Origin: Thermocrinis jamiesonii
Lineage (GTDB): Bacteria > Aquificota > Aquificia > Aquificales > Aquificaceae
Length of the DNA stretch: 64,000 nucleotides
Direction: 5' to 3'
Assembly: GCF_000702425.1 (NCBI RefSeq)
Contig: NZ_JNIE01000002.1
Span: 372,001 to 436,000, forward strand
Below are positions 1,766-43,815 of the stretch, piece after piece (positions within the stretch are counted from its first letter, which is position 1; each line of letters begins with the position of its first letter). The notes beneath the pieces were generated by a model, which was not told the origin of the DNA, searched no databases, and saw only the letters and a list, made by a program, of their open reading frames with translations. Both the position numbers and the translations under genes were made by a program.

Positions 1766-2188
1766 TTACCTTTTTACCATTGTTTCAAATTGGACTTTGG
1801 TTTTTGCTATAAGCTTTCTCTCTTTTTCCCAGCTTTCTTCAATCTTTTTCTTTTCCTTACTCAAGAACCGGTAGAGTTTTTTCTTTAGGTTTTCCTCATC
1901 CGATTTAAAGATTGCTTCTAAGACAGCGACCGCAACAGCTTTTTCCTCTTCCTCTGCCAAAACCAAACCATAGCCCTCAATACCTTTATACTCTACCTCT
2001 GCTTCAAAGACCAGTGCCTCTCCCAAACAAAAATCTACACCAAAGCAATCTTTTGCCTTTATCATCAAACACCCAGGTTGTGGTCCCCTCTTTACCTTTA
2101 CCTCCTCCATGGGCAAAATATTCAGAAGCCTTTTCAGGGCTCTTTTATCCATTTGAACAACCACTTCCCTGAAGTCCAGTTCCATCAT
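1766..2188 (-). CDS. phnG: PhnG, C-P lyase subunit
   Basis: 140 residues, typical of PhnG. Features match the family: an RxLxxLP-like stretch near residue 18, RGPQPGCLMIKAKD near residues 34-48, and a C-terminal AVAVLEAIFK segment. PhnG partners PhnI in the nucleosidase step of C-P lyase. Two ATGs stand in tandem at the start. The first overlaps the phnE stop as ATGA, and an AGGAGGAGG run just upstream serves as ribosome site, so phnE and phnG are probably coupled. Confidence 0.9.
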   Translation of the reverse strand: MMELDFREVVVQMDKRALKRLLNILPMEEVKVKRGPQPGCLMIKAKDCFGVDFCLGEALVFEAEVEYKGIEGYGLVLAEEEEKAVAVAVLEAIFKSDEENLKKKLYRFLSKEKKKIEESWEKERKLIAKTKVQFETMVKR

Positions 2189-3729
2189 ACCAACCTCCTC
2201 CTCAGATAACCGGAAAAATAGTCTATGAGCACTAAGGTAAGTAGTATAACTAATATCATTACGGATACCTTTTCAAACTCAAGGAGTTTTATCCTCATCA
2301 CAAGCTCAAAACCTATTCCCCCTGCCCCTACCACCCCCATTACGGTGGCAGCTCTTACGTTCCTGTCCAGTATGTAAAGATTGTAGCTATTGAAGAGTGG
2401 AAGGATCATGGGTATTACCGCATGTCTTATGGTCTGGGTTAGCCTGGCTCCTACAGCTTCTAAGGCTTCTATTGGTCTATAGTCCAAGTTCTCTATAGCT
2501 TCTGCGTAAAACTTAGACAAAAAGCCCGTCGTATGCAAGGCTATGGCCAAGACACCCGCAAAGGGACCAAGCCCCACTGCGCTAACAAAGATCAAAGCCA
2601 TCACAAGTTCAGGTATAGCCCTCAAAAAGTTTGCTATTTCCCTTGCAACATTATTCACGAAGAAATTATTTATCAAATTTCTGGCCATAAGCATTCCCAA
2701 AGGAACGGACAGTAAAACCGCTATGGTTGTTCCGGTTATGCCGATAGCTACAGTTTCAAGCATGAGCAGGACGTAAGTTTTGAGCTCGCTAAAGTCAAAT
2801 TTAAAAAACTCTCCAATCAAGGGCAGTAGATTTTTAAAACCTCTTACCAGCTCTGAAGTATCAATGGGTAAAAACTTCAAGGACACTAAGGCAACTATGA
2901 TGGTAGATGCAAGTAGAATTAGGTCTTTGGTCTTTGTGTGGTAGGCCAAGAGCTTATACTGCTGTATATCTTCTCTTAGCTTGGCGGAAAGCCTGTCTAT
3001 TAAGGAGATCACTAGCACTATCACTACAAGTATAGCTCCCACCTGAGGATAGTTAAAGGCTCTCATCTGGCTGTAAAGCTCAACTCCAAGGCCACCTGCT
3101 CCCACCACTCCTAAAACTATAGCCACTCTGATGTTGTGGTCTAAAAGGTATAGATTGTATCCAACGAAAAGGGGAAGTATCTGGGGTATTATGGCATGTC
3201 TAAAGACCGCAATGCTTCTGCTACCTGTAGATTGCAAAGCTTCCACGGGCTTTTGGTCTACGCTTTCTATTGCCTCCGAATAGAACTTGCCGAGAAGACC
3301 AACCGTAGAAATAGCAAGGGCTATAATTCCGGGCAAAGGTCCAACGCCAAAGGCTATAACCAAAATGAGTGCATAGAGAAGTTCTGGAATAGACCTTAAG
3401 AAATTCACCAGCCCGCGAAAGGTGTAATAAACAAGAAGGTTTGGTGAAGTGTTTCTGGCAGACAAAAAACCCACCGGAAGGGAAATAATGCTTCCTATTA
3501 TGGTTCCCCAAAGACCTATGGCTACAGTCTGGAAAGTAAGATTTATTATGTTTTCCAGGTTACTAAACTGCGGTGGTATCATTTCCTCAATTAGAGCCAA
3601 GGAGTTGGAAAATCCCTCCACCAGGGCAAAGACGTCAAACTTTGAAAAGCTAAAGGAGTAGTAAAGGACTACTAAAAACAAGAGCCACCAAAGGTATTTG
3701 AAGGAAGGACTTGGAAGACTATACCTCAA
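2185..3729 (-). CDS. phnE: PhnE, fused two-domain phosphonate permease
   Basis: 514 residues, about twice a single PhnE. Two homologous permease units follow one another (about residues 1-250 and 265-514). Each has several hydrophobic helices and its own ABC-contact loop: YSEAIESVDQKPVEAL in the first and YAEAIENLDYRPIEAL in the second, each followed by RHAxIPxILPLF and GVVGAGGxG. One polypeptide can therefore supply both transmembrane halves of the importer. The start is TTG, 8 nt after a GGAGG inside the phnC 3' end, giving an 11-nt overlap with phnC. Confidence 0.93.
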   Translation of the reverse strand: MRYSLPSPSFKYLWWLLFLVVLYYSFSFSKFDVFALVEGFSNSLALIEEMIPPQFSNLENIINLTFQTVAIGLWGTIIGSIISLPVGFLSARNTSPNLLVYYTFRGLVNFLRSIPELLYALILVIAFGVGPLPGIIALAISTVGLLGKFYSEAIESVDQKPVEALQSTGSRSIAVFRHAIIPQILPLFVGYNLYLLDHNIRVAIVLGVVGAGGLGVELYSQMRAFNYPQVGAILVVIVLVISLIDRLSAKLREDIQQYKLLAYHTKTKDLILLASTIIVALVSLKFLPIDTSELVRGFKNLLPLIGEFFKFDFSELKTYVLLMLETVAIGITGTTIAVLLSVPLGMLMARNLINNFFVNNVAREIANFLRAIPELVMALIFVSAVGLGPFAGVLAIALHTTGFLSKFYAEAIENLDYRPIEALEAVGARLTQTIRHAVIPMILPLFNSYNLYILDRNVRAATVMGVVGAGGIGFELVMRIKLLEFEKVSVMILVILLTLVLIDYFSGYLRRRLV

Positions 3730-4486
3730 AGTATACTTCCTCCAACTCTGTTTCGTAAAGCTCTCTTGCCATGTCTAAGCTAAAGTCTGACTGAGGTCCG
3801 TCAAAGTATAGCTTTCCATTCTTTAGTGCCACCACTCTGTTAAACTCTTGAACGTAGTAAAGATGATGAAGCACACAGATCAGGGTTATACCTTTTTCCG
3901 CACTTATTCTCAGAAGCAGGTTTATTATCTTTCTGCTTGTCCCTGGGTCTAAGTTGGAGATAGGTTCATCCGCAAGCAAGACCTCTGGGTCCTGCATAAG
4001 CGCCCTGGCTATGGCTACCCTTTGCTTTTGACCACCGCTCAGCCTATCTACTCTGGTGTATGCGTGGTCTGCAAGACCTACGTATTCCAAAAGATAGAGA
4101 GCCTTTTCTTTAACTTCCTTTGGGAAAAAGCCTATGCTGGTCATTAGATAATCTATTCCTTTGTCGTATTTACCCAAAGCTCCCATCATCACGTTTTCTA
4201 AAGCGGTCACCCTTTCCACGAGGTTAAACTGCTGGTAGATTTTCCCAATTCTTTTGCGGATGTTTCTTAGCATTTCCTTTTTGCTAAAATCCACCTTCGT
4301 ACCATCAAAATAAAAGTCCCCCCCATCGGGGAGGACAAAGCCGTTGATAACTCTCAAAAGGGTAGTCTTACCAGACCCGCTTGGACCAATGAGGGCAAGG
4401 ACCTCTCCTCTCTTGACCTGCAAGGAAACATCATCCAACACCTTCTTTTTACCAAAGCTTTTGTTTATGTTGTTAAGGAGCAGCAT
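3719..4486 (-). CDS. phnC: PhnC, phosphonate ABC transporter ATPase
   Basis: ABC ATPase that powers phosphonate uptake at the inner face of the membrane. Walker A is GPSGSGKT, the signature is LSGGQKQRVAIARAL, and Walker B is VLLADEP. Two ATGs are possible. The first (4501) abuts the phnD stop and contains the GGAGGTG ribosome site itself. The second (4486) sits 7 nt behind that site and starts with the family-typical MLLLNNINKSFG. I chose the second, giving 255 residues. Middle gene of the phnD-C-E transporter. Confidence 0.93.
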   Translation of the reverse strand: MLLLNNINKSFGKKKVLDDVSLQVKRGEVLALIGPSGSGKTTLLRVINGFVLPDGGDFYFDGTKVDFSKKEMLRNIRKRIGKIYQQFNLVERVTALENVMMGALGKYDKGIDYLMTSIGFFPKEVKEKALYLLEYVGLADHAYTRVDRLSGGQKQRVAIARALMQDPEVLLADEPISNLDPGTSRKIINLLLRISAEKGITLICVLHHLYYVQEFNRVVALKNGKLYFDGPQSDFSLDMARELYETELEEVYFEV

Positions 4487-4501
4487 TCCTTGCACCTCCA
4501 T

Positions 4502-5416
4502 TTACTTGCCCTTTTGAGCGTCTATAAACTTCTTCACTTCCTTTATAAGCGCATAGTCTTTATCTGAAACGAGCTTATATCCTACTATCCTTCCGTATCC
4601 TACCACCACATCCCTTGGTACTCTGGTGATAGACCTTCTGAGAGCTTCCTTGACGTTTTCTGGTAAGTCCTTTCTGTAAGCCATAGGAGGACCTGGTATT
4701 TCTGGAGACATCCATATAACCACGTTGTTCTCCTTTGTGATCTTGCCTTCCCTTAAGAGCTTGTCGTAGGTTATGTCGTTGTCAGCTACTATATCCAAAG
4801 TCTTTTTGAAGATTGCTAACTCCGCTGCGTCGTGGGTTCCAACAAAGCTTACACTCTTGAAGTATTCTTTGGGTTCAATGCCAGCCTTTGCCATGTAGTA
4901 GTAAGGGATAGCGTATCCAGAGGTGGATGCCGGGTCTGTGAAAGCAAATTTGAATTTCCCTTTGTGTTTTTCAAGCTTTTCCTTTAGGACTTTGATGCCA
5001 CTTTCTCCTTCAAGGGGCTTGGTAATACCAAGAGCTTTTGCTACCTCTGGCGTTGCTACAAGATAAGATCTGTAGGTGGTCCTTCCCTTTTCATCAACTC
5101 CAACTGCAAAAGCTTCTGCACCCGCTCTCTCGTTTGCCAGCACATAAGAGAAAGCTCCAAACCACGCAAAATCCACCTTCTTAGCCCTCATAGCTTCAAT
5201 AACTCCCGTGTAGTCAGTTGCTGTGAACATCTCAATGCACATCCCCATGTCCTTTTCCATCCACTCTTTCATAGGCTTGTAGCGCTCAATCATGGACTTA
5301 GGGTCCTCTGCAGGTATAAGACCCATTACCAAACACCTTTTCTCTGAGGCATAAGATGCACTCCACACAAGCGCACTCAAGAGGATTACAAGTAAGGTTC
5401 TAAGCATTTTCCTCAT
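4502..5416 (-). CDS. phnD: PhnD, periplasmic phosphonate-binding protein
   Basis: Substrate-binding protein of the phosphonate ABC importer. Residues 1-24 form a signal peptide (MRKMLRTLLVILLSALVWSA, then SYAS). The mature part has family features such as TDYTGVIEAMRAKKVDFAWFGA and FTDPASTSGYAIPYYYM. A longer reading from a TTG exists, but the ATG at 5416 lies 6 nt after a perfect AGGAGGT, so 304 residues is preferred. First gene of the operon, with a Pho-box-like repeat just upstream. The ligand may be 2-aminoethylphosphonate, another phosphonate or phosphite; sequence alone cannot decide. Confidence 0.93.
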   Translation of the reverse strand: MRKMLRTLLVILLSALVWSASYASEKRCLVMGLIPAEDPKSMIERYKPMKEWMEKDMGMCIEMFTATDYTGVIEAMRAKKVDFAWFGAFSYVLANERAGAEAFAVGVDEKGRTTYRSYLVATPEVAKALGITKPLEGESGIKVLKEKLEKHKGKFKFAFTDPASTSGYAIPYYYMAKAGIEPKEYFKSVSFVGTHDAAELAIFKKTLDIVADNDITYDKLLREGKITKENNVVIWMSPEIPGPPMAYRKDLPENVKEALRRSITRVPRDVVVGYGRIVGYKLVSDKDYALIKEVKKFIDAQKGK

Positions 5417-5445
5417 AGCTGTACCTCCTATAAATTTTTGCAAAC

Positions 5446-5477
5446 ATTTTAGGAGCCTTTTGTTAAGAAACTGTTAA
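5446..5477 (-). promoter_or_regulatory. Pho-box-like repeat and -10 of the phn operon
   Basis: On the minus strand TTAACA-N5-TTAACA occupies 5477-5461 (an 11-nt period), followed by a -10-like TAAAAT at 5451-5446. The phnD start is at 5416. The repeat fits the Bacillus PhoP box (TTAACA-type repeats, about 5-nt spacing). Read on the other strand, TTGTTAA-N4-CTGTTAA resembles the 7+4 layout of the E. coli Pho box. Its place directly before a phosphonate operon makes phosphate-starvation control the natural inference. Confidence 0.55.
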
Positions 5478-5487
5478 GATTTAAAAT
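5460..5487 (+). promoter_or_regulatory. Promoter of the M48 protease gene
   Basis: TTGTTA at 5460-5465 and TAAAAT at 5482-5487 are 16 bp apart. The preferred ATG (5495) begins 7 nt after the -10 box with no SD, so the transcript would be leaderless or nearly so. The -35 box overlaps the Pho-box-like repeat, so the two divergent promoters share this stretch. Confidence 0.45.
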
Positions 5488-5494
5488 GTTACTT

Positions 5495-6742
5495 ATGAAA
5501 GCAAGGTTTCTCATTTTAATATTCACAGTTTTTTTAATAAGCTGTGCTTCTTCTACAAGTTCCTCTTTTACTCTCCTTCCAGAAAGAAAGGAAATAGAAA
5601 TAGGACAAAGCTATATCCCGGTTGCCATAGAAGAGTTTGACGGCTTATACCCACAAGAAGAAGTTCAAGATTACATCAGCAAATTAGGAAATACTCTGGT
5701 AAAGCACACCTACAGAAGACTGCCTTACAAGTTTTACTTGGTAAATTCGGAGCAAGTTAATGCCTTTGCTCTTCCTGGAGGACCTGTCTTTATAACAAGA
5801 GGACTACTTTTGGAGCTTGAAAACGAAAGCCAATTGGTGGGTGTTTTGGGTCACGAACTTGGACACATAAACGCAAGACACCATGCGAGATTTCTTGAAA
5901 AGATGGTGGCTTTAAACATTCTTTTGGGAATAGGTTCTGTATTGCTTTCGGACAAACCCTATGGACAAGCTCTCATACAGTTTGGTCAAATAGGAGGAAT
6001 GCTTTTAGCTCTCAAGTTTAGCAGAGACCAAGAAAGGGAAGCGGATAAACTTGGTATAGAATTTACCATAAAAGCTGGATATGATCCAAACGGTTTAATA
6101 GAGGTGTTTCACATATTCAAAAGATTAGAGAAAAATAGGCTCCCGGAGTGGTTATCTACCCACCCACTTCCCGAAAGCAGAATAAAGGAAAATACACAGT
6201 TTATAAAGTCCCTATCTATTTCCGGGACGCTGATTAAGGATAGTGAAGAATTTCACAAGATAAGAAGAGCAGTTCTAAGCACAAAACCCTCCTTTGAAGA
6301 GTTCAGCAGAGGAAAGAAACTTTACCAAGAGGGGAATAAGGACTTGGCTTACAGGCACTTTTTGAAATCTGTAGAACTTTGGGAAAGAAACTATGTAGCG
6401 ATGCTTTATCTATCTCTGATACTGTTGGAATATGGGAAATTAGACGAGTCTTTTAAATACGCAAACAGGGCTTATGCAACCGTTCCCAATGTGTTCTCTA
6501 CCAACTACGTAATGGGACTTGTTCAATTCAAAAGAGGGCAATACAGAGAATCTATTAGATACCTCGAAGAAGCTCGCAGGCTAATACCAAATAATCCAGA
6601 CGTTTATTACTACTTGGGAAGAAACTGGGAAGCTTTGGGAGACAGGCGGAAGGCTTTTGAGAACTACAAAACGGCGGTTGAGCTTTCTGGCGGAAAAAGG
6701 CCGTGGGAATTGGATGCAAGGGAAAGGTTGAAGAGGTTGTAA
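5495..6742 (+). CDS. M48 metalloprotease lipoprotein with TPRs (BepA-like)
   Basis: Zinc metalloprotease of family M48 with a C-terminal TPR half, the architecture of BepA/YfgC, which oversees outer-membrane protein assembly in the periplasm. From the ATG at 5495 (415 residues) a short signal ends in a lipobox with Cys17 (LISC). HELGH lies at residues 120-124, and EREAD near 180-184 supplies the third zinc ligand. TPR-like helices fill about residues 280-410. An in-frame ATG at 5486 would add MLL and sits inside the likely -10 box, so it is less likely. Monocistronic or followed by sco. Confidence 0.88.
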   Translation: MKARFLILIFTVFLISCASSTSSSFTLLPERKEIEIGQSYIPVAIEEFDGLYPQEEVQDYISKLGNTLVKHTYRRLPYKFYLVNSEQVNAFALPGGPVFITRGLLLELENESQLVGVLGHELGHINARHHARFLEKMVALNILLGIGSVLLSDKPYGQALIQFGQIGGMLLALKFSRDQEREADKLGIEFTIKAGYDPNGLIEVFHIFKRLEKNRLPEWLSTHPLPESRIKENTQFIKSLSISGTLIKDSEEFHKIRRAVLSTKPSFEEFSRGKKLYQEGNKDLAYRHFLKSVELWERNYVAMLYLSLILLEYGKLDESFKYANRAYATVPNVFSTNYVMGLVQFKRGQYRESIRYLEEARRLIPNNPDVYYYLGRNWEALGDRRKAFENYKTAVELSGGKRPWELDARERLKRL

Positions 6743-42196: not shown

Positions 42197-42202
42197 ATTA
42201 TA
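42197..42202 (-). promoter_or_regulatory. -10 box of the NIL-thiL segment
   Basis: TATAAT at 42202-42197 on the minus strand, overlapping the stop of the upstream histidine kinase gene and ending 6 nt before the ATG at 42190. No recognisable SD, so an internal leaderless transcript of the long operon is likely. Confidence 0.45.
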
Positions 42203-43178
42203 CCTTAAACTCTCTAAAGCAAACGTGCAAGTTGTATTTTTCCTTTACCCTAATTGTTAGCTCTCCATCCAATCTTTTGATGTGTTTTTCAAGGAGCCTA
42301 AGGCCAAGGCCTATGCCCTTTCCACCGGTGTTTAAAAAATCGTTGCGGATGGTTAGAATTAGTCTATTTTTGTAAATCATAGCTTTTACGTAGATAAAAC
42401 TGATTGAATACTTTATGGCATTGCTCAGAAGATTGTAAAGAATGTCATCCAGCTCCCTCTCATCAACAAAGACGTATATGTTTTCTTCACACCTTAACAA
42501 AAGCTTTTTACCTTCAAGGTCCTCTTTAAGAAAACTTACGGTATTTTCCAAACTTCGCCTTAGGTTGGTCCAAACTCTGTGGGGATTTACCTCTTCCTGT
42601 GAAAGTCTCAAAATTAAACCTATGTCCTTTTCAAGTAGTTCTACGCTCCTTTGCATTCTATCTAAGGCTTGCGCTGAGTATTTCTTTCTTAGAAGGCTTA
42701 AGTTTGTCTTTTGAACTGATATGAAGTTTCCAAGCTTGTGGGTCAAAGACTGAATTAAAGCTTTGCTAAAATCTCTACCCTCTTCCACCCTCTTCCACAA
42801 AACCTCCAAAACCATCTGGTAGAGCGCTACCAATGAAAAAATCAACAAAAACTGCATAGCAAGGATCCTTTTTATACTGGGTTTTATGTTTTCCGTAAAA
42901 TACCCCTCTCTAACCACCACGTAAACGTTTTTAAGCTGATCTTTTGGATCCCTGAAGGTATATGCAAAACCTGTAGGCATCTGTTCCGACAGTGCAAAAT
43001 TTTCATCCCCTCTGTGGTTTGGATTGATTGAATACAGCAAGTAATGGGCATAAGCTTTGTAGTATATGATTTCCTCCACATGCTTTTTTAATTCAAAGAA
43101 AAGGAGCGTATTCAGTGCTAAAAAACCTACAGTTAAAAGCAGAGCAAAGGCAAGTGTGAGTTTTGTTTTTTCAGCCAA
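42198..43178 (-). CDS. Sensor histidine kinase with atypical H-box
   Basis: 326 residues. Membrane helices at about 8-30 and 105-125 flank a small periplasmic domain. The putative phospho-acceptor is His147 in SLTHKLGNFIS, which differs from the common HELRTPL/HEIKNPL boxes. The ATPase domain keeps NLLSNAIKYS and GKGIGLGLRLL. TTG start 6 nt after GAGGAT, overlapping the response regulator stop by 8 nt. Forms a two-component pair with that regulator. Signal unknown. Confidence 0.8.
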   Translation of the reverse strand: MAEKTKLTLAFALLLTVGFLALNTLLFFELKKHVEEIIYYKAYAHYLLYSINPNHRGDENFALSEQMPTGFAYTFRDPKDQLKNVYVVVREGYFTENIKPSIKRILAMQFLLIFSLVALYQMVLEVLWKRVEEGRDFSKALIQSLTHKLGNFISVQKTNLSLLRKKYSAQALDRMQRSVELLEKDIGLILRLSQEEVNPHRVWTNLRRSLENTVSFLKEDLEGKKLLLRCEENIYVFVDERELDDILYNLLSNAIKYSISFIYVKAMIYKNRLILTIRNDFLNTGGKGIGLGLRLLEKHIKRLDGELTIRVKEKYNLHVCFREFKV

Positions 43179-43815
43179 CTTTGTATCCTCTTCCCCTCAT
43201 GGTTTGTATGAATCCCTTGGGAAAAAGCTTTCTGAGACTTTTTATGTGAGCCCTGACTACATCTTCTCCCACAGGCTCGTCGCCCCAAACATAGTTGAGT
43301 ATTTTTTCTTGGGACACATAAGTGCCCCTGTTTTCTACCAAAAGCTTAACGATAAGCCAGTCTTTTTTACTCAGTGGGACAATCTTTCCATCCACCTTTA
43401 CCACTTCCTTGCTCAAGCAAACCTCCACATTTCCTATTACCACCACATCGTAAGGATTTCTCCTTCTGTAGAGTGCTTTTATTCTAAGGATCAGCTCCTC
43501 CATCTCAAAGGGCTTGCTCAGATAATCGTCTGCTCCGAGTTCAAAGCAGGTGCGCTTGTCTTCAATTCTGCGTTTTGCGGTTAAAACCAGTATGGGTGTT
43601 TCTTTGTCTCTTTCTCTGATCCTCTTTATCAGGTCCTCTCCCCTTACGTGTGGCATCATAAGGTCAAGCACGATAACATCGTAAGCTTTCACCTCCAATA
43701 GGTCCAAAACCTCCCTTGGGTCCCACACCCAATCTGTAATAAAACCTTCTGACTCTAAAAATTCCTTTAAACTTTTTCCAAGCAATTTGTCGTCCTCTAC
43801 GAGTAAAACCTTCAT
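43171..43815 (-). CDS. OmpR/PhoB-family response regulator
   Basis: 214 residues. Receiver with Asp51 (VIVLDLMMP) and Lys in LSKPFE, then a winged-helix DNA-binding domain (SQEKILNYVWGDEP, VRAHIKSLRKLF, TMRGRGYKVG). Partner kinase directly downstream, overlapping by 8 nt; overlaps radA by 4 nt upstream. The phn operon has a Pho-box-like site 38 kb away, but nothing in this sequence shows that this regulator is PhoB. Confidence 0.88.
   Translation of the reverse strand: MKVLLVEDDKLLGKSLKEFLESEGFITDWVWDPREVLDLLEVKAYDVIVLDLMMPHVRGEDLIKRIRERDKETPILVLTAKRRIEDKRTCFELGADDYLSKPFEMEELILRIKALYRRRNPYDVVVIGNVEVCLSKEVVKVDGKIVPLSKKDWLIVKLLVENRGTYVSQEKILNYVWGDEPVGEDVVRAHIKSLRKLFPKGFIQTMRGRGYKVG

Follow-up and report, generated by a model that had tools for sequence, protein, structure and literature searches.

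The phn operon of Thermocrinis jamiesonii, which encodes phosphonate uptake and C-P lyase, is preceded by a short direct repeat, and the question raised by this locus is whether that repeat is a Pho box that places the operon under phosphate control. Overall, we believe this to be very probably the case: the comparisons presented here point to a predicted Pho box for phnDCEGHI(JKLM), operating within a PhoB-type phosphate-starvation switch. Coordinates without a contig name refer to the window, the whole 64,000-nucleotide stretch that was analysed.

The repeat upstream of phnD and its copies in the genome

On the minus strand, positions 5477-5461 read TTAACA-GTTTC-TTAACA (TTAACAGTTTCTTAACA), two TTAACA half-sites (5477-5472 and 5466-5461) repeated directly with an 11-bp period, just as the first-pass annotation had described them; this exact sequence occurs in the window only here. 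From the end of the repeat to the phnD ATG (5416) is 44 nt, and along the minus strand the repeat is followed by AAAGGCTCC, by a predicted -10 hexamer TAAAAT (5446-5451) nine bases past the second half-site, assigned through the composite pattern discussed below, and by GGAGG (5424-5428), the ribosome-binding site of phnD. No -35 element at the usual distance from TAAAAT (5451-5446) was seen in the sequence upstream of phnD.

The operon itself begins with phnD (4502-5416, minus strand), which encodes the phosphonate-binding protein (TIGR03431 PhnD, 264 bits, over the cut-off; Pfam Phosphonate-bd) and likely starts at ATG 5416 and not at TTG 5443, the start of the longest open reading frame. 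On the same strand lie phnC, an ABC ATPase (3719-4501; Pfam ABC_tran), phnE, a permease with two fused BPD_transp_1 domains (2185-3729; two Pfam stretches), and phnG (1766-2188), phnH (1177-1761) and phnI (81-1175), each matched by the Pfam family of its name; the operon continues outside the window (L198) in frames that by inspection read as phnJ, K, L and M. Divergently, on the plus strand, a lipoprotein M48 metalloprotease with TPR repeats is encoded at 5486-6742 (Pfam Peptidase_M48), starting at 5486 or, likelier, at 5495. The second ATG (5495) gives the better lipoprotein signal peptide, and translation from it might use a leaderless mRNA.

Across the genome (1,315,625 bases in 10 contigs, as in the published draft of T. 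jamiesonii GBS1; PMC5073254) the exact repeat occurs five times, against 0.1-0.5 copies expected from Markov models trained on the window and a single copy of the control pattern read backwards, and on these counts we reject a chance origin. Four of the five copies immediately precede pstS, phnD, phoX and phoU (pstS named by TIGR02136, phoU by TIGR02135, phoX by Pfam PhoX), while the fifth precedes dnaA; the scan for repeats before pst, pho and phn genes that had been proposed with the first-pass annotation thus gave a positive result. A sixth site, TTAACAGTTTCTTAACC, stands before a DUF2334-like gene, whose product was named by its resemblance to DUF2334 proteins of relatives and not by a scan of its own. 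Copies of the repeat with one mismatch (L007, L009, L010, L011, L013) overlap coding sequence wholly or in part and appear to be noise.

Repeat/-10 geometry and recurrence across the Aquificaceae

The defining feature of these sites is the repeat together with a -10 nine bases downstream, rather than the repeat alone. The composite pattern TTAAC-N6-TTAAC-N10-TANNNT has four perfect matches in the whole genome, at pstS, phnD, phoX and the DUF2334 gene, where TA-N3-T starts exactly nine bases past the second half-site; there are no genome-wide matches with one mismatch, and those with two are many and patternless. At phoU the box is the same and TATACT stands at N8. When all exact TTAACA repeats from 31 related genomes are taken and near-duplicates removed, TANNNT stands at exactly N9 in 18 of the 48 that remain, whereas the other spacings average 1.4. 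This count is independent of any choice of sites by gene, and we rely on it in preference to a hand-picked set of sites, in which TANNNT was found at N9 in 17 of 22. Since the spacing between repeat and -10 is fixed, the second half-site occupies the -35 position, as in Escherichia coli, and the phnD box, with TAAAAT at N9, sits just upstream of the -10 in place of a -35.

The same arrangement recurs throughout the family. A search of 64 Aquificaceae genomes with the composite pattern yields 177 matches, against one for the reversed control, and the pattern is rare outside the Aquificaceae. The box ends 11-39 bases before a PhoU match in 20 of 24 genomes (genera g7, g10 and g11, and G003), and family-wide its targets include pstS, phoU, phoX, a PhoD-like phosphatase, the phosphate-selective porin O/P and a type I phosphodiesterase. 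The box also stands before genes for TonB-dependent receptors, a DUF302 protein and an MgtE transporter, and before several that encode small proteins of unknown function. Boxes before pst, phosphatase and other phosphate genes are therefore found both in T. jamiesonii, where they make up four of the five exact copies, and across the family; phosphate control of the phn operon, previously called plausible, is supported by the copies at pstS, phoX and phoU and by this recurrence. Two units with an 11-bp period at phnD become up to four in relatives: in G001, G002, G004, G005 and G006, phoX is preceded by four half-sites with that period, and nine bases past the last of them comes TA-N3-T. At the same time, the presence of PhoB does not predict the exact motif, since genera g3, g4 and g9 have a clear PhoB homologue yet almost no stringent box.

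Several other genes were found behind boxes. Two types of small protein recur in several genera, one group of 68-69 aa (L246, L256, L262, L271, L285) and one of 121-124 aa (L247, L270, L286); one type ends in a ERDTFLTEKDRTILIESFV-like sequence and the other starts MI-E/N and has a YFSS/YFDSVEE motif, and a representative of each gave no Pfam match. Boxes at L057, L062, L253 and L257 accompany a 150-aa protein, called roadblock-like by eye and without a Pfam match, and a DUF7948 protein; at L062 a GTPase-like gene comes after the roadblock-like gene. Back-to-back boxes lie between divergent genes at L257/L258 (G054) and L265/L266 (G055), with the roadblock-like gene among them in G054. In genus g12 (L040, L041, L082) the exact repeat stands before a gene that by eye resembles pyruvate-phosphate-dikinase/PEP-synthase, with TAAAAT about seven bases on. 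A further sequence, TTAACACCTCCTTAACA, found before iscU-like genes (L236, L250, L284, L290), reads as a ribosome-binding site in reverse, and we discarded it as a false positive.

The candidate regulator, known Pho boxes and rival readings

The genome encodes two OmpR-family regulators. PhoB models match the one at C2:110942-111607 best, with 210 bits (NCBIfam), against 131 for the one at 43171-43815 in the window, and the kinase encoded immediately upstream of phoU (G000 C6) has PnpS and PhoR as its best models (289 and 250 bits). Both proteins score below the NCBIfam equivalog cut-offs, so the PhoB/PhoR pair encoded here consists of homologues and not of certified members. In G011, another member of the Aquificaceae, the orthologue of the C2:110942 regulator is 53% identical; there the repeat stands before phoB itself and before the neighbouring pstS, and a PhoR-like gene adjoins. 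PhoB orthologues were found in 54 of the 64 Aquificaceae genomes. The second T. jamiesonii two-component system (kinase 42198-43178, regulator 43171-43815, both on the minus strand; OmpR-family, closest to RppA/CtrA models) is unrelated to PhoBR.

Among known systems, the Bacillus subtilis PhoP box is built of TT[ACT]A[CT]A hexamers, usually four. The Bacillus-like spacing recognised in the first-pass annotation holds, in that TTAACA fits the hexamer consensus at a spacing of about five, but the phnD site has two hexamers, both fitting, instead of four. The likeness to E. coli drawn there also stands as far as layout is concerned: the E. coli PhoB box, CTGTCAT in a 7+4 layout (PMC4415409, PMC1906773), lies 10 bp before a TAN3T/A -10 (PMC1906773), and at phnD two direct units with an 11-bp period likewise lie about 10 bp before a TAN3T -10 instead of a -35. 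In sequence the two differ, with a half-site of TGTCA in E. coli as against TTAACA in T. jamiesonii, (C)TTAACA being no near relative of CTGTCAT, and with a recognition helix that reads HIRRLR in E. coli PhoB and HIKNLR in the T. jamiesonii homologue; indeed, the Pho box consensus varies between species (PMC4415409). Judged by its letters, the closest half-site is that of the cyanobacterial Pho box bound by SphR, CTTAACCT-N3-CTTAACCT (PMC1906773), which shares the 11-bp period, has nearly the same half-site (CTTAAC) and is also found before pst and phosphatase genes. Three repeats are the rule in Synechocystis, however, against two and sometimes four in the Aquificaceae, and the distance to the gene is often greater in cyanobacteria, whereas most sites of the Aquificaceae are within a few tens of bases of the start and keep the fixed N9 to the -10. 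A lineage-specific Pho box is, on these comparisons, strongly supported. The earlier remark that Aquificota Pho boxes are undefined agrees with the literature searched, mostly outside subscription papers, in which we found no previous description of an Aquificota Pho box or regulon.

Other readings of the repeat have to be weighed against this one. TTAACA agrees with the -35 consensus TTGACA at five of six positions, and the two words might thus be taken for the plain -35 of a constitutive promoter, repeated by chance. The -10, however, sits 9 nt from the second TTAACA and 20 nt from the first, where a -35 needs 16-18 nt, and both repeat and spacing are kept before phosphate genes across genera, with the 177 matches against one in the control; the spacing and these counts lead us to reject a plain -35, which we regard as highly improbable. 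We think it more doubtful still that the repeat serves the divergent M48 protease as an operator. The first-pass annotation had placed it over the -35 of the protease promoter, and formally this is true: TTGTTA (5460)-N16-TAAAAT (5482-5487) on the plus strand overlaps the repeat. That promoter is weak, scoring 9 of 12, its -10 overlaps the first ATG (5486), and the repeat, which tracks phosphate genes, can be accounted for without it. Within the genus, protease orthologues have different neighbours and no repeat upstream, so a link between repeat and protease is unsupported; the protease is a neighbour outside the switch.

An OmpR-family regulator other than the PhoB homologue, either that at 43171-43815 with its kinase (42198-43178) or a CtrA-like factor, is a somewhat less remote candidate for binding the repeat, though an unlikely one. 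The genome has two such regulators, proteins of this family all bind direct repeats of about this period, and for a cell-cycle regulator a site before dnaA would make sense. The CtrA box of Alphaproteobacteria is TTAA-N7-TTAAC, and TTAA-N7-TTAA in the repeat fits that motif. The letters of the repeat fit, but its targets are phosphate genes, and of the only two OmpR-family regulators in T. jamiesonii one is PhoB-like and the other of another kind. PhoB models favour the C2:110942 regulator by 210 bits to 131, and its G011 orthologue belongs to a cluster of phoB, phoR and pstS in which phoB and pstS each have a box upstream.

For the favoured reading, a Pho box served by the PhoB homologue, a pathway can be proposed, in which we infer the binding by PhoB, the direction of control and the phosphate signal. 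When phosphate is low, the PhoR-like kinase would phosphorylate the PhoB-like regulator (C2:110942-111607). Each of the two TTAACA half-sites would then be occupied by one PhoB molecule, the pair arranged head to tail at a distance of 11 bp, and together they would take the place of the missing -35, recruiting sigma-70 RNA polymerase to TAAAAT nine bases downstream. Phosphonate uptake and C-P lyase would thereby be switched on together with pstS, phoU, phoX and the DUF2334 gene.

The phn operon, dnaA and the predicted phosphate regulon

PhnI was found in only two of 136 Aquificota genomes, those of T. jamiesonii and G063. Upstream of phnD, G063 carries the units TTAACC, TTAACG, TTAAAA and TTAACA, with TACGAT at N9. 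The two PhnD proteins are 63.5% identical to each other, against 66.0 and 63.0% to a Nitrospirota MAG, and the PhnI proteins 62.9%, against 65.3 and 58.5% to that MAG. Because the two operons are as distant from each other as from the Nitrospirota MAG, these identities fit a separate acquisition of phn in T. jamiesonii and G063, although an ancient presence followed by loss may be an alternative. The nearest PhnD relatives found (Nitrospirota and Nitrospinota MAGs, 63-66% identity) have no TTAAC repeat before phnD and carry there instead a GntR-like gene, identified by eye and not by family scan. We therefore reject import of the box with the operon, and the box looks local; the simplest reading would be that the phn operon came under a local phosphate switch. 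Further PhnD-like genes seen in relatives (L085, L088-L095 and others) proved to be paralogues that lack the box.

The copy before dnaA, TTAACAATTTCTTAACA (G000 C2:172172-172188; L002, L201), is unchanged in six of seven Thermocrinis genomes (orthologous loci L055, L065, L067, L070 and L045), while the adjacent flanks are 55-65% identical across the genus, and chance is unlikely given that the repeat is conserved where its flanks differ. It is absent from G003 and from other genera. No -10 is found at N9 here. The -10-like hexamer TATGCT, which is conserved, stands at N19, exactly ten bases (one turn of the helix) beyond that position, and some 30 bases upstream of the repeat there is a TATAAA that is conserved as well. 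Lacking a -10 at N9 and any known phosphate role, this copy is a point against the Pho box reading. It might nonetheless be that the phosphate regulator also controls dnaA in Thermocrinis, a tentative idea that we consider less probable than its opposite; starvation would then directly set replication initiation, and both activation and repression by PhoB are possible.

For the Aquificaceae, a thermophilic lineage that is often placed deep, these results offer a concrete Pho box together with a predicted phosphate regulon, within which a rare C-P lyase operon appears, in two lineages, to carry the phosphate switch of its host family. The DUF2334 genes, the small genes of unknown function behind boxes and dnaA are candidate new members of this regulon, and of these the conserved dnaA copy is the most surprising lead.
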